This document shows positions 1,567 through 9,198 of a stretch of DNA of 64,000 bases, in pieces. Every line of letters starts with the position of its first letter. The stretch's first letter is position 1. Origin of the DNA: Rhodohalobacter barkolensis (lineage in GTDB: Bacteria > Bacteroidota > Rhodothermia > Balneolales > Balneolaceae); assembly GCF_002834295.1 (NCBI RefSeq), contig NZ_PISP01000002.1:186001-250000 (forward strand), in the 5' to 3' direction. Below the pieces are notes generated by a model. It made no database searches and was not told the origin of the DNA. It saw only the letters and a program-made list of their open reading frames with translations. The translations under genes were made by a program, and so were the position numbers.

Positions 1567-2328
1567 TCAATTCAATATTCTAACTTCAATTCCATTTTCT
1601 GCCATCTCCTTTTTCAAATCAGAGATCTCAATTTCTCTGAAATGGAAGATACTGGCAGCGAGTACAGCGTCTGCATTTCCCTTTGTTACAGCTTCTATAC
1701 AGTGCTGAATTGTTCCTGCGCCACCACTGGCAATTACCGGAATTGTTACCTGTTCATTTACAATTTTCAATAACTCGTTATCAAAACCGGACTTTGTTCC
1801 ATCGCGGTCCATACTGGTCAACAGTATTTCGCCGGCTCCAAGTTGTTCTGTTTTTTTGATCCACTCAATGGCGTCCAGTCCTGTCGGTTCTGATCCGCCC
1901 TTTACAAAGACTTCCCAATGATCACCAACTTTTTTGGCGTCAACAGCGGCCACAATTGCTTGCGAACCGAATGCGTCGGAAGCTCGGGTAATTAAATCGG
2001 GATCACGGACAATGGCACTGTTCAGAGATACCTTATCCGCACCGGCTTTTAATATCTCTTCAATTTCATCAACGGTTTTAATACCGCCTCCAACCGTAAA
2101 TGGGATGTTGATGTGAGCCGCAATCTCTTTTACCAAATGTACCAATGTGCGTCGTTTCTCTTTGGTTGCAGTGATATCGAGAAAAACCAGTTCATCGGCG
2201 CCTTCTTCCGTGTAGCGCTGAGCAAGCTCTACAGGATCACCGGCATCCCGCAACCCGACAAAGTTCACCCCTTTAACGGTACGGCCGTCTTTGATGTCCA
2301 GGCAGGGAATGATTCGTTTTGTAAGCAT
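1567..2328 (-). CDS. hisF: Imidazole glycerol phosphate synthase, cyclase subunit HisF
   Basis: Cyclase half of IGP synthase. It receives ammonia from HisH and converts PRFAR to IGP and AICAR. The length of 253 residues is standard. The (beta/alpha)8 half-barrel signatures are present: [20 protein letters not shown] with the catalytic Asp near residue 11, [19 protein letters not shown] with the second catalytic Asp near 130, and [11 protein letters not shown] for phosphate binding. It lies 62 bases after hisA and 22 before hisE. Its partner HisH is two genes upstream. Confidence 0.98.
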
Positions 2329-2390: not shown

Positions 2391-3116
2391 TTATGAATTA
2401 GAAGAATGGAGGTGAGCCAGATCTTCCAGGCCGATGTGACCTTCGTAGTAGGCTTTGCCAACCACAACTCCATGAATCTCAAGATTACTCAACCGGATAA
2501 GATCCTGTAAACTTGAAACTCCACCGGAGGCGATCCAATTGAGATTCGGGAATCGGTTTTGAAGATCTTTATACATGTCAAAATTAGGGCCGCTCAACAT
2601 TCCATCTCTTGAGATGTCTGTGCTCAAAACAGATTTCAAACCGGCCTCAATCATCGGATTCAAAAATTCTTCAATCGGTTTATCAGAAGTTTCCAGCCAT
2701 CCGCCGTATGCCATTTTCCCATCTTTCAGATCGAGTCCGAGAATAATCTCATCGGGATTATTTTGAATGGCTCCTAAGAATTCATCCGGCTTTTTTACTG
2801 CCATAGACGAGCAGATGATTCCACTTAGACCGGCATCCAAAAGTTGTTGAATATCGTTTTGAGATCGAACACCACCACCGGTTTGAACAGTGAGCCCAAG
2901 TTCGTTAATAATCGTTCTAATAATGGGAAGGTTTACAAAAGATCCGCTTTTCGCACCGTTCAGATCTACAACGTGAATGTGGGTAAAACCTGCCGTTTTA
3001 AATTTTGCGGCTTCCTCGATAGGATTGTGATTATAGACAGTTTTTTTGCTGTAATCTCCTTTTTGCAGTCGCACAACCTGTCCATCAAGCAGGTCAATTG
3101 CCGGGATGATGTTCAT
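2391..3116 (-). CDS. hisA: ProFAR isomerase HisA
   Basis: Isomerises ProFAR to PRFAR, the substrate of HisF-HisH. It has 241 residues, the family length. It begins MNIIPAIDLLDGQVVRLQKGDY with the catalytic Asp at residue 8. VQTGGGVRS follows, then the second acidic residue in STDISRDGM and the phosphate loop IASGGVSS. It is paralogous to HisF two positions away, as expected. It lies between hisH (96 bases upstream) and hisF in the operon. Confidence 0.98.
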   Translation of the reverse strand: MNIIPAIDLLDGQVVRLQKGDYSKKTVYNHNPIEEAAKFKTAGFTHIHVVDLNGAKSGSFVNLPIIRTIINELGLTVQTGGGVRSQNDIQQLLDAGLSGIICSSMAVKKPDEFLGAIQNNPDEIILGLDLKDGKMAYGGWLETSDKPIEEFLNPMIEAGLKSVLSTDISRDGMLSGPNFDMYKDLQNRFPNLNWIASGGVSSLQDLIRLSNLEIHGVVVGKAYYEGHIGLEDLAHLHSSNS

Positions 3117-3212: not shown

Positions 3213-3824
3213 TCAGGCCGTTTTTTTCGTTGAATTTTTTACAATATCTACAAAATTCTGAAGCAAAAGTGAACCCACTGTACCCGATTTCTCAGGATGA
3301 AATTGCACACCCATGAAATTATCTTTTGCCACTACTGCACAGAAATCCTTGATGTATTTACATGTTGCAAGGGTATACTCGTTGGCAGGAGCATAATAGC
3401 CGTGCACATAATAGAGAAATTGTTTGTTATCGATTCCCTTGATCAATGGATGATCTATTTGAGGTTCGAAACGATTCCATCCCATATGCGGAACCTTTGC
3501 TTTTGAGGCGTCAAATTTCTTCAATTTGCCGGGTATCAACCCAAGTGTGTCACTTTGTCCTTCTTCTGAAGACTCATAGAGTAACTGCATTCCAAGACAG
3601 ATACCCAGGACGGGTTTTTGTGTATTTTTTAACCATACATCAAGATCTCGTGAGCGAAGGTCATCCATAGCGGCTCCGGCATGCCCAACTCCCGGGAAAA
3701 TAATACCGTCTGCACTGTCCAATTCTTCAGAATTGTCTGAGATGAAATAGTCTGCATTAAGTCGTTCAAGTGCGTTTGCTACCGAAGCGAGATTTCCGGC
3801 CTGATATTTAATAATTCCTATCAA
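3213..3824 (-). CDS. hisH: Imidazole glycerol phosphate synthase, glutaminase subunit HisH
   Basis: Class I glutamine amidotransferase that makes ammonia for HisF. It has 203 residues. The triad is visible: Cys in LGICLGMQLLYE, then His and Glu in VQFHPEKSG. The oxyanion strand region reads FPGVGHAGAAM. The order hisH-hisA-hisF is the conserved core of his operons. The hisB stop is 33 bases upstream. Confidence 0.98.
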   Translation of the reverse strand: MIGIIKYQAGNLASVANALERLNADYFISDNSEELDSADGIIFPGVGHAGAAMDDLRSRDLDVWLKNTQKPVLGICLGMQLLYESSEEGQSDTLGLIPGKLKKFDASKAKVPHMGWNRFEPQIDHPLIKGIDNKQFLYYVHGYYAPANEYTLATCKYIKDFCAVVAKDNFMGVQFHPEKSGTVGSLLLQNFVDIVKNSTKKTA

Positions 3825-3857: not shown

Positions 3858-4745
3858 TTAAATAGTGCCTTTTGTTGAAGGGAGGATGCCCCTGGTACGC
3901 TCACTCCGGGTTATGGCAAAACGCAGGGCTCTGGCAAAACCTTTGAAAGTAGCTTCAATGATGTGGTGATCATTTTTTCCGTTAGCGGTAACATGCAGGG
4001 TTGCCTTTGCGTTCATGGCCAGGGTATAATAAAAGTGTTCTAACATTTCGGTAGGAAAATCACCTACGTATTCACGCTTTAAATCAACATTATACTGCAG
4101 GTAGGGTCGGTCGGAAAGGTCGATGGCGACCGTTGCCTGAGCTTCGTCCATTGGCAATACAAAGCCGTAGCGCTGAATCCCGGCTTTATTGGTCGACACA
4201 GCTTTGCTGATGGCTTGACCCAGTGCAATAGCGGTGTCTTCTATCGTGTGGTGTTCATCTACTTCCAGATCACCTTTGCAGGTAATTTCAAGATCAATCA
4301 AACCGTGTTTGGCAATTTGATCCAGCATATGATCGAAGAAATTCAGGCCCGTTTTAATTTCACTTTTCCCGCTTCCATCCAGGTTGATGTTTATATGGAT
4401 ATCCGTCTCTTTAGTGGTTCGATTAATCTCCGCTTTTCTGAATGGAAAAAGTATCCGGCGCACCAGTTCAGTCCATGATTCTGATTTGCTCAGAATCTCA
4501 TCATCCTTCTGGAACAGGTATAAATTTTCGGACCGTGTGATTTTAGCATCGGCATCTTTCCCGGTTTCAGTAGACTGAAAACCTTCATTTTCAAGCAGGG
4601 ATTTTTGGTGTTCAGATAACTCTGAATCAGTCCAGGCCATTTGGTGGCCATGCTCTTTTAAATATCCTAACCCGTAAATAACTCCCGGCGCAAGTAGGAA
4701 CTCATTTTTACCTTTAAGTGCCGATGATTCAATTTGAATGATCAT
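3858..4745 (-). CDS. hisB: Imidazoleglycerol-phosphate dehydratase with decayed HAD-type N-terminus
   Basis: Dehydrates IGP to imidazole acetol phosphate. Residues about 103-295 are a full IGPD domain with both metal-binding motifs, DEHHTIED (164-170) and DHHIIEATFKG (259-269), and RGILPSTKGTI at the end. The first ~100 residues are an extension. In bifunctional HisB this position holds histidinol-phosphatase of about 165 residues. The join WTELVRRILFPFRKAEINRTTKETDI and an upstream LLAPGVIYGLGYLKE look like remnants of that domain, but the catalytic DxDGT near the N-terminus is absent and the region is about 60 residues short. I infer a dehydratase-only enzyme derived from a bifunctional ancestor. 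Histidinol phosphatase must then be encoded elsewhere. Confidence 0.93.
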   Translation of the reverse strand: MIIQIESSALKGKNEFLLAPGVIYGLGYLKEHGHQMAWTDSELSEHQKSLLENEGFQSTETGKDADAKITRSENLYLFQKDDEILSKSESWTELVRRILFPFRKAEINRTTKETDIHININLDGSGKSEIKTGLNFFDHMLDQIAKHGLIDLEITCKGDLEVDEHHTIEDTAIALGQAISKAVSTNKAGIQRYGFVLPMDEAQATVAIDLSDRPYLQYNVDLKREYVGDFPTEMLEHFYYTLAMNAKATLHVTANGKNDHHIIEATFKGFARALRFAITRSERTRGILPSTKGTI

Positions 4746-4767: not shown

Positions 4768-5817
4768 TTAGCCTACAATTTCCCTGAGGGCCTTCAGGAA
4801 TTTTACGTTCTCATCGGGCATGCCAATCGTTACACGCAAACAATCCTCACAAAGCGGTTCATTTCCGCGATAGCGAACAATGACGCCGCGCTCGGCAAGT
4901 TGGCGGTAGACTTCTTTTGCATTTTTAATTTTGAATAGGATAAAATTAGCATTCGAAGGGTAAACCTTGGTCACGGCATTACTATGGCTCAACTGCTCAG
5001 CAACGTAGTCTCGTTCATCCTTGATTGCATTGATATTAAACTTCATCAATTCCATGTCATCAAACACTTTCAGAGCTGTATCCGCTGTCAATTTGTTGAT
5101 ATTGTAAGGAGCTTTCACGCGCAGCATGTAGTTGATGATATCGGGGTTAGAAATGGCAACTCCCAATCGAATTCCGGCCAGGCCAAATGCCTTTGAAAAC
5201 GTTTGAAGTACAACCAGATTCGGATACTGCCGTACCATTTGAGCCATCGATTCCTGCCGGCTGAAATCGATATAGGCTTCGTCCACTACTACGATTCCTT
5301 TAAATTTTGCTACCAATTTCAGCAGGTCGGTTCGCTTCAGATCATTTGCTGTAGGATTATTTGGAGAACAGAGAAATAACAGCTTACTGTTTTCATTCGC
5401 TTCTTCTATGATCTCATCCGTCCGCAGCTGAAATTTTTCAGTCAGTAAAACTTCCTGTACAGCTACGTTATTGATGTTTGCAGCAACTTTGTACATGCCA
5501 TAAGTGGGTGGAGTGATGAGAATTGAATCCTTGCCGGGTTCACAAAAAATCCTCATCAACAGATCAATCGGTTCATCGCTGCCCACGCCTAAAAAGATAT
5601 GTTCAAGATCCACACCCCGATAGTCGGCAATTTTCTGTCGCAGTGCATCCTGTGTGGGCGAAGGGTATCGATGGAGATCCAGTGAGTTTCGCAACGGTGC
5701 GCCATAGCTGTTTTCATTGGCATCCAATAGTGTGCCGCTGTCAAAATCATCGCGGGCACTGCGGTAAGGTGTTAATTTGCGAATGTTATCTCGAACAAAG
5801 CTATCGATATCAAACAT
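4768..5817 (-). CDS. hisC: Histidinol-phosphate aminotransferase
   Basis: PLP-dependent aminotransferase (fold I) converting imidazole acetol phosphate to histidinol phosphate with glutamate. It has 349 residues. Visible are DANENSYGAP at the N-terminus, FLCSPNNPTAND (PLP/substrate Asn), VVVDEAYIDFS (PLP Asp and Tyr), the Schiff-base Lys in QTFSKAFGLAGIRLG, and the C-terminal RVTIGMPDEN with its carboxylate-binding Arg. It sits 22 bases before hisB and 12 after hisD, so translation is probably coupled. Confidence 0.97.
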   Translation of the reverse strand: MFDIDSFVRDNIRKLTPYRSARDDFDSGTLLDANENSYGAPLRNSLDLHRYPSPTQDALRQKIADYRGVDLEHIFLGVGSDEPIDLLMRIFCEPGKDSILITPPTYGMYKVAANINNVAVQEVLLTEKFQLRTDEIIEEANENSKLLFLCSPNNPTANDLKRTDLLKLVAKFKGIVVVDEAYIDFSRQESMAQMVRQYPNLVVLQTFSKAFGLAGIRLGVAISNPDIINYMLRVKAPYNINKLTADTALKVFDDMELMKFNINAIKDERDYVAEQLSHSNAVTKVYPSNANFILFKIKNAKEVYRQLAERGVIVRYRGNEPLCEDCLRVTIGMPDENVKFLKALREIVG

Positions 5818-5829
5818 GGAAGTTCTGAC

Positions 5830-7125
5830 TCAGTGATTAGTTTTTAATTTTTTCAGACGAAGCGTTACTGCGTTTTTATGAGCCTGGAGCCCTTCAATTT
5901 CAGCAAGTGTTTCAACTGTTGGACCCAAATTTCGTAATCCCTCTTCAGAGATTTTCTGCATGGTGATAAACTTTTGAAAGCTATGCAGCGATACACCGCT
6001 ATACATTTTAGCATAGCCATACGTAGGCAGTGTGTGGTTGGTTCCGGATGCGTAATCACCCATGCTTTCAGGAGTCCAGGGACCGATAAATACAGATCCG
6101 GCATTTGTGACGTTCTCTGCCAGCTTTTCAGCGTCTGCAGTGTTTATGATAAGATGCTCCGGCGCATATAGGTTCGAAAACCGCATGGCATCTTGCGTAG
6201 TGTCTGCCGTGATTATGAAACTTTTACTCAGTGCTTTTTCAGCGAACTCTTTTCGGGGCAGTTCATTTAACTGCAATTCTACTTCTTGTTCAATGGCCCG
6301 GATATCGGCGTCTTCTGTGATGACTAACACGGACTGGCTGTCGGAGCCGTGTTCGGCCTGAGACAGCAGGTCCGATGCAATAAAAGCGGGGTCTGCGGTT
6401 TTGTCGGCAATGACCAATACTTCTGAAGGTCCTGCCGGCATATCGATGGAAACCATTGCTTCGCTATTCTGAAGAATCATTTTTGCGGCAGTCACATATT
6501 GATTTCCTGGACCAAAAAGTTTATCCACTTTTGGAATGGACTCAGTTCCGAATGCCATACCTGCAATAGCCTGAGCTCCACCTGCTTTCACAATTTTTTC
6601 GGCGCCAATTCTTTTTGCAATGTAGATAATCGACTCCGGAATATTTCCGTTTTTATCCGGCGGTGTGGCAATAACTATGGTTTTGCAGCCGGCTACCATG
6701 GCGGGAACGCCGAGCATCATGGCTGTTGACGGGAGCGGTGCAGTTCCTCCCGGTATGTAAAGGCCAACACGTTCAATCGGTTTAGCAACTCTCCTGCAAA
6801 CAACACCCGGCATGGTTTCCACTTCCAGGTCCATTGAGTTCTGATGCTTATGAAACAGAAAAATATTATTGAGTGCCTGATCGATCGCAGCCTGAACTTT
6901 TGGCTCAAGCTCAACGGTAGCTTCATCTGGATTGAGAGTGATCTCATCCAGGTCAACCCCATCAAACTTGCTGGTGTATTTCCGGATGGCTTCGTCACCG
7001 CCTTTTTCTACATCATCCAGGATCGGCTGAACCTGACCAAAGACCGAAGTAAAATCCATCTTAGGGCGCTTACAGAGCTTCTCAATATCTGTATCAGTCA
7101 GGTTTTTGAGTAAGTAATTTTTCAT
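5830..7125 (-). CDS. hisD: Histidinol dehydrogenase
   Basis: Zinc- and NAD-dependent oxidation of histidinol to histidine, the last step. From the ATG at 7125 the protein has 431 residues. A longer frame starts at a TTG at 7149, but that adds only eight residues and reaches into the heptad repeat, so ATG is preferred. Signatures: [20 protein letters not shown], the glycine-rich [27 protein letters not shown], the Zn ligands in [12 protein letters not shown], and the catalytic stretch YAPEHLII. The upstream gap to hisG holds the repeat at 7148-7196. Confidence 0.97.
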
Positions 7126-7147
7126 GATTTTAACATTCAGTTTTTTC

Positions 7148-7196
7148 AAGACTCAAGACTCAAGACTCAAGACTCATATCTCAAATCTCATATCTA
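7148..7196. repeat. Heptamer tandem repeat between hisG and hisD
   Basis: Four exact copies of AAGACTC (7148-7175) are followed by three drifting copies: ATATCTC, AAATCTC, ATATCTA. On the transcribed minus strand the units read TCTTGAG and relatives. It fills nearly all of the 75-base hisG-hisD gap. It would be part of the polycistronic mRNA and so could affect spacing, stability or polarity. This is one of three related arrays in the window. Confidence 0.85.
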
Positions 7197-7200
7197 TTCA

Positions 7201-8079
7201 TCAAGCAATCATCGATTCAATGGGCAAGACAACAATGCCGGTCGCGCCTGCATCTTTGAGGTTTTCCATCAGATCCCAAAAAGTAGTAATTGTAATTACG
7301 GTGTGAATGGCTACCATTCCGTTATCGGCCAGAGGCATTACAGTCGGGCTCTTTAAAGACGGAATAATGTCTTTGATCTCATCAACGGCTGATTCCGGTG
7401 CATTCATCATAATATACCGGCTTTTCTCAGCTTTTTGATACCCCTCAATCCTCTGCAGGAATTTCTCGATCAGCGCCTGTTTCCCTTCAGAAAGTGGCTT
7501 GTTAGTTTTAACTAATTGCGTTTCCGAATCAAATATCGTTTCAAGTTCCTGCAGCCCGTTTGCTTTTAATGTTCCGCCTGTGGAAACCAAATCAGTGATG
7601 ACATCGGCTATCTCAAGACGAGGGGCAATTTCAACAGAACCTGAGAGTGTAACGATATCAGCCGACAGCCCCTTGCTTTCAAGAAATTTACGGGTTAATA
7701 CCGGGTAGCTAGTTGCAATTCTTTTGCCATTCAGATCTGCTGCCGACTGAATGTCACCGGCTTTTGGAGCTGCAATAGATAGTCGGCAAACCCCGTAATC
7801 AAGACCACGCAAAATAGTGACGTCCGCTTCATCTTCGGCCACGGTATTCGCTCCAACAAAACCAAGATCACAAACTCCATCTTCTACATATTCGGGAATA
7901 TCGTCATCCCGGATCAACAGAAGTTCTACGTCAAAATTTCGGCATTTAACCAATAGGCTTCGTTTGTAGTCATCAAACTTTAATCCGATCCCTTCCAGCA
8001 GGTTAAGTGTTTTGTCGGTTAGCCGTCCGCTTTTTTGAACAGCAATGCGCAGTGAGGTGGATGAATCCAGGGTTCTCAT
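7201..8079 (-). CDS. hisG: ATP phosphoribosyltransferase, long form HisG
   Basis: First committed step: couples ATP and PRPP to phosphoribosyl-ATP. At 292 residues this is the long form, which needs no HisZ. It has two periplasmic-binding-like lobes (SGRLTDKTLNLLEGIGL near residue 17, then LGFVGANTVAE), the PRPP loop DLVSTGGTLKANGL near 160, and a C-terminal ACT-like domain (about 220-292, from YIMMNAPESAVDEI to GATGIVVLPIESMI). In this family that domain mediates histidine feedback inhibition. It is the first gene of the operon, 81 bases after the leader-peptide stop. Confidence 0.97.
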   Translation of the reverse strand: MRTLDSSTSLRIAVQKSGRLTDKTLNLLEGIGLKFDDYKRSLLVKCRNFDVELLLIRDDDIPEYVEDGVCDLGFVGANTVAEDEADVTILRGLDYGVCRLSIAAPKAGDIQSAADLNGKRIATSYPVLTRKFLESKGLSADIVTLSGSVEIAPRLEIADVITDLVSTGGTLKANGLQELETIFDSETQLVKTNKPLSEGKQALIEKFLQRIEGYQKAEKSRYIMMNAPESAVDEIKDIIPSLKSPTVMPLADNGMVAIHTVITITTFWDLMENLKDAGATGIVVLPIESMIA

Positions 8080-8160
8080 AGTGAAAGTATTAATGTTTAA
8101 AATTCAATTGGAAAATGTGAAAATGGGTTAGAACTGTGCGAAATCGTGAGAAGAAAACGG

Positions 8161-8244
8161 TTAGTGATGGTGATGCACAGAATGCCCGTGACTTCCGGTA
8201 TGGAAGTGGTGGTGGGAAGAGATATAGATAATTTGTTTTTTCAC
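8161..8244 (-). CDS. Histidine operon leader peptide (27 codons, 10 His)
   Basis: A short frame starts at GTG 8244, runs 27 codons and stops at TAA 8163-8161. It begins V-K-K-Q-I-I-Y-I-S-S and then carries His at codons 11-13, 15, 19, 21 and 24-27, ending in four consecutive His just before the stop. No other start (ATG) is in frame; a stop lies a few codons upstream. Ten His in 27 codons directly upstream of hisG is what attenuation leader peptides look like. Downstream, CTGTGC inside the leader can pair with GCACAG about 36 bases later, with flanking GGG/CCC pairing, looping out the four His codons. I see no classic terminator with a T-run, so the exact mechanism is open. Confidence 0.8.
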   Translation of the reverse strand: MKKQIIYISSHHHFHTGSHGHSVHHHH

Positions 8245-8248
8245 AGTC

Positions 8249-8280
8249 CAAAATTATGCATTTCAATGTTAGGATGCCAA
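8249..8280 (-). promoter_or_regulatory. Candidate his operon promoter, Bacteroidota type
   Basis: On the minus strand a TTG (8280-8278) is followed after 21 bases by TAATTTTG (8256-8249), an exact TAnnTTTG match with the usual spacing. Transcription would start around 8241-8245, practically at the GTG of the leader peptide, giving an almost leaderless leader mRNA. A weaker TATTCTTG lies further upstream. Confidence 0.5.
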
Positions 8281-8328
8281 GAATATTGTAAAACAGAAAA
8301 AATGTGGCTGATCATTCCTTGGGAAGCA

Positions 8329-8365
8329 TAAAAAAACCCGACCTCAATAAAGAGATCGGGTTTTA
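8329..8365. terminator. Rho-independent terminator after the DUF4382 gene
   Basis: Stem AAAACCCGACCTC/GAGATCGGGTTTT with a 6-base loop (one stem mismatch/wobble), and on the minus strand a following run of seven T. It lies just beyond the stop of the minus-strand lipoprotein gene and insulates it from the his promoter. Confidence 0.85.
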
Positions 8366-8388
8366 GAATTTTCAAGCTGATTTTGTAG

Positions 8389-9198
8389 TTACTCACCGCC
8401 GGCAGCTTCCAGAGATACAGTATCAATCACTGTTGTGTCTGGAGCGGATACTTCAATGTTTGAGATTACGGTCGAATTGAAATCTTCACTGCTTGGTTTC
8501 ACTGAAATCTGGTATGATCCGGATTGCAAACCGATGATAAGGAAGTCTCCTTCGTCGGAAGCCTGGGTACCGCCTAATGTGTCATCATCAGATATGGCAT
8601 AAACCCACGGAAGAGCTTCTGCAGGCTCTATGGCCCCACCGATTGCCCCTGTTTGTGCAAGGTTAACGGCTTTGATCACTGGTTTTAAGTTGAATCTTCC
8701 GGAGTTCCCCGCTTTCACAATCGATCGCGAAGCATCAAAATCAAGCAGAAGTGTGTAGGAGCTGCCGCCCTCTATCTCTGCATCGAGTTGTAATTTTAGT
8801 CCGGATTGCTGAGCACTTGGTGTAGATAAGTGGTGAGTTTCGCCATTGATAACCAACTCATTTTGATCGCCCAGAATGAGCCGCATTTGGTTATAGGAGC
8901 CGGGTTCCAGTTCAGCCTCACCCAATATTTCATAGTTTCCATTTGTGAGTTCAAGCAGGTTTAAACGAACAGGCTGATCATTAATGGTTCTCCATCCATT
9001 ATCTTCTTCTTCGGCATCGGACTGTTTGTGCACGCGCACTTCCTGAACATCAATCCAAACCTCTTCATAATCACCCGGTGCATCGGTTAACAGCACTTTC
9101 ATTGTGCCTGGCTCGTTCGATAGATCGCTGGATAAATCGCAGGATGCGAACAGAAATATTCCCGCAATTATCATAGATATTGTACTTAGTAATCTCAT
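8389..9198 (-). CDS. DUF4382 lipoprotein with carboxypeptidase-regulatory-like tail
   Basis: Predicted lipoprotein of 269 residues. The signal peptide MRLLSTISMIIAGIFLFASC ends in a lipobox with Cys20. Residues about 30-165 match the DUF4382 pattern: GTMKVLLTDAPGDYEEVWIDVQEVRVH, then LLELTNGNYEILGEAELEPGSYNQMRLIL. The C-terminal ~85 residues (GGAIEPAEALPWVYAISDD ... GDFLIIGLQSGSYQISVKPS) look like a carboxypeptidase regulatory-like beta-sandwich. The function of DUF4382 is not established; surface or periplasmic binding is a guess. It is transcribed alone, with its own terminator. Confidence 0.85.
   Translation of the reverse strand: MRLLSTISMIIAGIFLFASCDLSSDLSNEPGTMKVLLTDAPGDYEEVWIDVQEVRVHKQSDAEEEDNGWRTINDQPVRLNLLELTNGNYEILGEAELEPGSYNQMRLILGDQNELVINGETHHLSTPSAQQSGLKLQLDAEIEGGSSYTLLLDFDASRSIVKAGNSGRFNLKPVIKAVNLAQTGAIGGAIEPAEALPWVYAISDDDTLGGTQASDEGDFLIIGLQSGSYQISVKPSSEDFNSTVISNIEVSAPDTTVIDTVSLEAAGGE

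Follow-up and report, generated by a model that had tools for sequence, protein, structure and literature searches.

A conserved His-rich leader frame upstream of hisG in Rhodohalobacter barkolensis and other Balneolaceae, a probable his leader peptide that appears to work without a standard intrinsic terminator

The window, by which we mean the whole 64,000-nucleotide stretch of DNA from the salt-loving bacterium Rhodohalobacter barkolensis analyzed here, contains a histidine biosynthesis cluster in the order hisG-D-C-B-H-A-F. Every gene lies on the minus strand, and a short His-rich frame stands ahead of hisG. The principal features are as follows.

8333..8364, minus strand: intrinsic terminator of the preceding gene (DUF4382 protein, 9198-8389), from the terminator scan
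8161..8244, minus strand: his leader ORF of 27 codons plus stop, GTG start at 8244, TAA ending at 8161, 10 His
8080..8160, minus strand: spacer between the leader stop codon and hisG, containing 21 C and 5 G, rut-like in composition, no intrinsic terminator
7201..8079, minus strand: hisG (TIGR00070)
5830..7149, minus strand: hisD (TIGR00069)
4768..5817, minus strand: hisC (TIGR01141)
3858..4745, minus strand: hisB, imidazoleglycerol-phosphate dehydratase (profile match)
3213..3824, minus strand: hisH (TIGR01855)
2391..3116, minus strand: hisA (TIGR00007)
1567..2328, minus strand: hisF (TIGR00735)

Since the terminator at 8364-8333 ends the preceding gene, the leader and the his genes look like a separate unit. 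Among the matches listed, the closest named relative by HisG is Rhodohalobacter halophilus (91%). HisB is 295 aa long, and the approximately 100 residues that precede its dehydratase domain match no Pfam family and give only a weak match in NCBIfam (E 0.17). The genome encodes rho (595 bits, over the cut-off; G000:C1:1134735-1136210), and a second Rho-like match (G000:C2:17183-18268, L233) scores 422.6 bits, under the family cut-off.

The leader frame is translated as VKKQIIYISSHHHFHTGSHGHSVHHHH followed by the stop codon (8244-8161), which lies 81 nt from hisG (start 8079). An earlier note on this DNA had described a GTG-initiated frame before hisG with 10 His in 27 codons, including HHH and a terminal HHHH; both statements are correct, and the frame, whose strand the note left unstated, is on the minus strand. 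The His codons comprise six CAC and four CAT, the first at codon 11, with Tyr at codon 7. No other stop-free 27-codon window among the 44,166 in the six frames of the 64 kb contains 10 His, and the binomial chance of at least 10 His in 26 residues is 1.7e-9 (His making up 0.0294 of six-frame residues). A comparison of NCBIfam models with the leader peptide returned no match.

We searched 92 Balneolaceae genomes, of which 87 have hisG and 84 were read upstream of it (G332, G422, and G431 were left out), and scored a frame as His-rich when it held at least four His within 20 codons. Such a frame precedes hisG in 79 of the 84 genomes. Two of the five misses lie at contig ends (L132 and L144) and the other three have divergent HisG proteins (L169-L171, 44-45% identity); L168, from the set with HisG 44-46% identical, has a frame with five His. 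His-rich frames were also found at 9 of 15 other Balneolales loci and at 40 of 52 loci from the wider class and phylum (L180-L231), these being database groupings of genomes from whose listed matches the loci were picked by hand and not as a random sample. Relatives without such a frame were what the earlier note had named as evidence against its reading, and the outcome on the whole favors that reading: retention is the rule in Balneolaceae. Against it, all five genomes of the Balneolales family f56 (L048, L050, L051, L178, and L179) have no His-rich frame before hisG. Family f56 may be a lineage that lost the his leader.

The 77 distinct family leaders together use 464 CAT and 166 CAC codons for His, and the peptides otherwise vary widely. 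This set omits L156 (TTG starts only) and L132 and L144, which yielded no leader; L168-L171 were excluded from most family sets, and L052-L131, which overlap other locus sets, were used in one comparison only. Varied leaders that retain His with changes at the third base match the expectation for selection on histidine decoding, and this is the pattern that the earlier note had predicted for relatives. The first His falls at codon 7 in 59/77 leaders, starts in this set having been picked with an eye to the promoter box. The absence of the frame throughout f56 would suit a functionless ORF, a relic or a product of chance, but such an ORF accords poorly with a 10-His stretch found once in 64 kb and kept in 79/84 relatives with third-base changes; we give that explanation almost no weight. 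The leader frame exists as described, is conserved, and almost certainly encodes a his leader peptide, which would almost certainly sense histidine.

Bacteroidota promoters carry TAnnTTTG at -12 to -5 (PMC9723704), and matching elements precede the leader.

8278..8280, minus strand: TTG of a -33 element, 21 nt upstream of the -7 box, a spacing shared by 31/77 family leaders
8249..8256, minus strand: -7 box TAATTTTG, its end 4 nt upstream of the leader GTG; predicted +1 at 8244

As TAATTTTG ends 4 nt before the GTG, the predicted +1 falls on that G. When starts were set independently of the box (5 of 6 matches or better, spacings 0 to 33), the distance from box end to start was 4 nt in 23/76 and 5 nt in 24/76 family leaders, and every other spacing occurred at most five times; when the choice of start was free, with ties favoring 4 nt, the box stood at 4-5 nt in 60/78. 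Spacing is scattered in the class and phylum his leaders. For the other Balneolales, the two procedures conflict, giving 6/9 at 4-5 nt with free start choice versus 0/10 without box bias (the latter including L168-L171, sorted there under other Balneolales); we claim the feature for Balneolaceae alone. The leader mRNA is probably leaderless in the window and in most Balneolaceae, judging from box position. Leaderless mRNAs make up 5.5% in Flavobacterium psychrophilum (PMC9723704), and 5′ UTRs shorter than 10 nt about 3.7% in Bacteroides thetaiotaomicron (PMC7366714).

Intrinsic terminators were sought as a stem of at least 6 pairs with at least 4 G-C, a loop of at most 10, and then at least 6 T in 8. 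The scan of 7900-8500 identified a sole site, 8364-8333, upstream of the leader promoter, and none between leader and hisG. The earlier note had already remarked on the missing T-run terminator, and its absence proves to be a clade-wide trait: the rule is passed by 1/77 family his leaders (L133, with the hit inside the leader ORF) and by 0/9 from other Balneolales, against 3/770 and 0/90 shuffled sequences, respectively. By comparison, 32/40 class and phylum his leaders pass (shuffles 4/400), as do all 30 Balneolaceae trp leaders upstream of trpE (L234-L263; shuffles 3/300), the trpE set being the best-scoring 30 of 89 genomes searched and all shuffles preserving base composition only. The trp leaders carry WWW, or WCW in L245. 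Balneolaceae thus use textbook attenuators, though not for his, and these sequences are most simply explained by a loss of the his terminator in Balneolales. The his leader very probably works without a standard intrinsic terminator.

Two side observations concern the other leaders of the family. In 22/30 trpE rows, a count in which three rows were read at the wrong place, 7 nt separate the -7 box from the start, and the predicted 5′ UTR is only 2-3 nt. At the Balneolaceae ilvB loci (L264-L293), many short Ile/Leu/Val-rich frames lie immediately upstream and often have an ending similar to SGILILNLIIR; at several loci the filter, a loose one, picked up no such frame. These are possible ilv leaders.

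Rfam models at the gathering threshold matched only a tRNA in the window, with no his leader and no T-box, and matches at E≤10 within 7900-8420 likewise included no his-leader family and no T-box. A classical attenuator of the enteric type, pairing a Rho-independent terminator with a competing antiterminator, would account for a His-rich leader before hisG and for a hairpin within the ORF. It is highly improbable here, given that the window has no U-tract terminator and the family only the one hit inside an ORF, that Rfam finds no his leader, and that inspection by eye found no conserved competing pairing. The earlier note's suggestion that the mechanism may differ from the enteric model is in keeping with the absence of a terminator between leader and hisG in both window and family.

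The spacer has a composition of its own. In the window it has a C:G ratio of 3.9 over 81 nt, of which 34 are T; family spacers have the same median, 3.9, with a ratio of at least 2 in 75/77, a value reached by 1/28 other upstream regions of the window. The distance from leader stop to hisG spans 56-101 nt in the family (every eighth value). Among the 40 class and phylum his spacers, the median C:G is 1.0, toward which a terminator stem alone pulls the ratio; the eight class and phylum leaders that have no terminator give 1.1-1.8. However, the nine other Balneolales spacers, also terminator-less, have a median of only 1.6, and this counts against a strict link between terminator loss and a C-rich spacer. 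Rut sites are recognized by being rich in C, poor in G, and largely unstructured (PMC5021804).

The minimum-energy fold of the window leader (-22.3 kcal/mol) contains three stems, P0, P1, and P2, with the leader stop codon in the loop of P2.

8238..8244, minus strand: P0 5′ arm, GUGAAAA, including the start codon (fold; pairing probability 0.999)
8117..8123, minus strand: P0 3′ arm, UUUUCAC, in the spacer (fold)
8202..8207, minus strand: P1 5′ arm, ACUUCC, within the ORF (fold, swap tests)
8191..8196, minus strand: P1 3′ arm, GGAAGU, within the ORF (fold, swap tests)
8185..8187, minus strand: P2 outer 5′ arm, GGG, within the ORF (fold)
8175..8180, minus strand: P2 inner 5′ arm, CUGUGC, in the final codons of the ORF (fold, swap tests)
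8134..8139, minus strand: P2 inner 3′ arm, GCACAG, in the spacer (fold, swap tests)
8125..8127, minus strand: P2 outer 3′ arm, CCC, in the spacer (fold)

RNAalifold gave no consensus structure for 33 Rhodohalobacter-group leaders aligned with MAFFT, and we therefore used alignment-free tests in which the arms of one species are scored against those of another, asking if true partners fit best. P2 passes this swap test in the Rhodohalobacter group (33 leaders, p<0.0005), in Gracilimonas/Balneola (24, p 0.004), and in Fodinibius (12, p 0.0015). Permutation of whole genera gives 0.0013 over 14 genera, 0.032 within the Rhodohalobacter group, and 0.10 within Gracilimonas/Balneola; tested one sequence at a time against shuffled spacers, 11/33, 5/25, 3/12, 5/5, and 0/2 leaders of five groups reach p≤0.05. 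The pairing of CTGTGC (8180-8175) with GCACAG (8139-8134) that the earlier note had pointed out is thus present in the minimum-energy fold, and pairing between leader end and spacer coevolves. Together with the conservation of the frame and the third-base changes, this coevolution argues for the note's reading of the locus as his leader-peptide attenuation. In genus g11 (L162-L166), a long stem joins leader end and spacer, GGGGATTTGTGC with GCGCAAATCCCC in 4/5 loci, with no T-run after it; it is the strongest P2-like structure that we saw (mean duplex energy -19.8, z -4.2).

For P1, the swap test in the Rhodohalobacter group gave p values of 0.80, 0.049, and <0.0005 over three choices of arm, of which the last is the one reported; the same three choices gave 0.16, 0.21, and 0.10 in Gracilimonas/Balneola and 0.27, 0.76, and 0.95 in Fodinibius, the first Fodinibius row having an invalid mean energy. 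Genus permutation gave 0/3000 over 14 genera. Synonymous-codon shuffles provided no support for P1, with a mean z of +0.34 to -0.46 in three large clades and -1.70 in g11. By eye, we looked for the classical competing alternative in which the P1 3′ arm pairs with the spacer; it was suggestive in L003-L005 and absent in L001, and was dropped.

P0 passes the swap test in Gracilimonas/Balneola (p<0.0005; 0.0003 by genus) and is not significant in the Rhodohalobacter group (0.40 and 0.51) or in Fodinibius (0.125). Its pairing probability, 0.999 in the window, is at least 0.99 in the near relatives L002 and L031; these share the P0 arm with the window, so that P0 in the three is a prediction and not a case of coevolution. 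The 5′ end pairs with the spacer at a probability above 0.5 in 22/25, 15/33, and 8/12 leaders of three clades. Complementarity of the 5′ end exceeds that of shuffled spacers at p≤0.05 in just 10/77 leaders, and P0 is therefore not a general feature, despite its coevolution in Gracilimonas/Balneola. By eye, in most of the Fodinibius (g7) loci L010-L018, L141, L142, L145, and L146, GATGC at the predicted RNA 5′ end complements GCATC directly after the leader stop, and a hairpin of the GTAGC/GCTAC type follows whose arms vary in step; the swap test for the 5′ end gave p 0.125.

With no intrinsic terminator, leader translation must be converted by other means into an effect on hisG. We propose, with somewhat more confidence than doubt, that the frame belongs to a leader-peptide attenuator that senses histidine for the his cluster, leaderless and terminator-less, in which P2 would act as a Rho-dependent switch. 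Comparison among genomes supports the elements on which this proposal draws: a His-rich leader kept in relatives, a recurrent distance from box to start, a missing terminator, a C-rich and G-poor spacer, and stems that coevolve. Transcription would start at the first base of the leader GTG, and a ribosome would initiate at the RNA 5′ end. When charged His-tRNA is plentiful, the ribosome would reach the stop codon and hold P2 open, the 5′ arm of P2 lying in the final codons; with P2 open and the C-rich, G-poor spacer emerging, Rho could load and terminate transcription before or early in hisG. When His-tRNA is scarce, the ribosome would stall earlier in the ORF, as a rule on the first His (codon 7 in most relatives, codon 11 here), the leader end would pair with the spacer to form P2 and mask it, and RNA polymerase would continue. 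P0 would re-pair the start codon with the spacer and may limit re-initiation, and it would be blocked while a ribosome occupies the 5′ end, as would be the case on stalling at codon 7, where the ribosome would extend over the start of the RNA. That stalling regulates, the direction in which P2 switches, and the role of P0 are what we infer.

Three features suit a Rho-dependent switch: the terminator is missing, the spacer is rich in C and poor in G, and P2 is placed where a ribosome finishing the leader would open it. We see an even chance that Rho would be the terminator. In the model, the unpaired fraction of the spacer was 0.69 with the ribosome stalled versus 0.79 with it at the stop in the Rhodohalobacter group, and 0.73 versus 0.79 in Gracilimonas/Balneola, the at-stop stretch omitting the first 9 nt so that the stretches compared are not quite identical; in Fodinibius, modeled accessibility was the same in either position. 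With the ribosome gone, the modeled spacer is about as closed as when the ribosome is stalled (0.68), and Rho would therefore have to load in the brief period of the ribosome at the stop. The modest gain in modeled accessibility is a weak point of the Rho proposal. Tentatively, and at less than even probability, we suggest that the family swapped an ancestral intrinsic terminator for a Rho-loading spacer and moved the transcription start to the first base of the leader, creating a one-shot gate: after a ribosome has departed, the start codon at the RNA 5′ end would re-pair with the spacer, and only the pioneer ribosome, loaded during transcription, would read the histidine level.

The same stems could instead stop RNA polymerase by a non-canonical intrinsic mechanism, in which P2, or a junction of P1 and P2 closed by P0, acts with a weak U-rich tail, perhaps aided by NusA or NusG, and the position of the ribosome decides if the structure forms. 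The coevolution of P2, the T-rich spacer (34/81), an ATTTTCC after the P0 3′ arm in L001, and the joint formation of P0, P1, and P2 in the L001 fold all point that way. We nevertheless consider it unlikely, as the one leader of 77 that passes the terminator rule does so inside the ORF, P2 is short with a long loop containing the stop codon, and the same genomes have textbook terminators before trpE (30/30).

Control could also be exerted on translation, the position of the leader ribosome opening or closing the hisG start. The terminator is absent, and leader-peptide control of translation exists in ermC (PMC2965389). However, modeled accessibility of the hisG start with versus without a stalled ribosome was 0.61/0.60 in the Rhodohalobacter group, 0.64/0.66 in Gracilimonas/Balneola, and 0.53/0.57 in the window, and a leader stop 56-101 nt from hisG is far for re-initiation; we regard translational control as quite unlikely. 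Masking of the hisG start in particular is unsupported, predicted accessibility barely changing on stalling. A further explanation places the effect on mRNA stability: by stalling close to the 5′ end, a ribosome would shield the leaderless mRNA from decay, and release would leave the RNA exposed or folded through P0. A first His at codon 7, as in 59/77 leaders (a set whose starts were picked with regard to the box), would hold the ribosome over the 5′ end, and P0 coevolves in Gracilimonas/Balneola. We think this improbable, for it leaves the C-rich, G-poor spacer and P2 unexplained, the first His of the window is at codon 11, and P0 would itself protect the 5′ end.

The enteric his attenuator of E. 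coli and Salmonella, as described in PMC3896937, shares with the Balneolaceae leader a short His-rich ORF before the first his gene and sensing by translation. Unlike it, the Balneolaceae leader has no Rho-independent terminator, is predicted to be leaderless, scatters its His over the ORF, and places a stem across the stop codon. A precedent for the proposed logic is provided by Salmonella mgtL, where stalling favors a stem that masks a Rho region and full translation exposes that region (PMC5021804); mgtL senses proline, and Rho dependence, inferred for our leader, was shown for mgtL. The attenuator RNA of Sinorhizobium meliloti trpL (rnTrpL; PMC7298713) likewise begins at the leader start codon, which is mapped there and predicted here, and responds to tryptophan. 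Within the phylum, the other Bacteroidota his loci (L180-L231) share the His-rich frame in 40/52 and differ in that 32 of these 40 have a terminator, in a median spacer C:G of 1.0, and in a scattered box spacing; the trp leaders of Balneolaceae share a short leader with cognate codons near the -7 box and differ by their textbook terminator.

For Flavobacterium psychrophilum, strong clues of leader-peptide attenuation before amino acid operons are given in PMC9723704, and PMC4833913 cites a 2010 comparative survey (Lopatovskaya and others) that may cover Bacteroidota his leaders. In the open-access PMC literature, subscription papers and preprints being outside that scope, no his attenuator was found described for Balneolota. 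Each part taken singly has a precedent; we did not find the combination of the parts, or its family-wide spread, in that literature.

Leader-peptide attenuators have been sought largely via intrinsic terminators, and the authors of PMC2965389 state that their own search misses Rho-dependent cases. The Balneolales offer a natural comparison, keeping a his sensor while lacking the terminator that most of the his leaders read across the wider phylum carry, with the trp leaders of the family as an internal control. The predicted leaderless start makes the coupling of a ribosome that initiates at the 5′ end to RNA polymerase a testable matter. If Rho acts at these leaders, terminator-less leader-peptide attenuators may outnumber the counts of surveys, and they could be searched for by cognate codons together with spacer composition.
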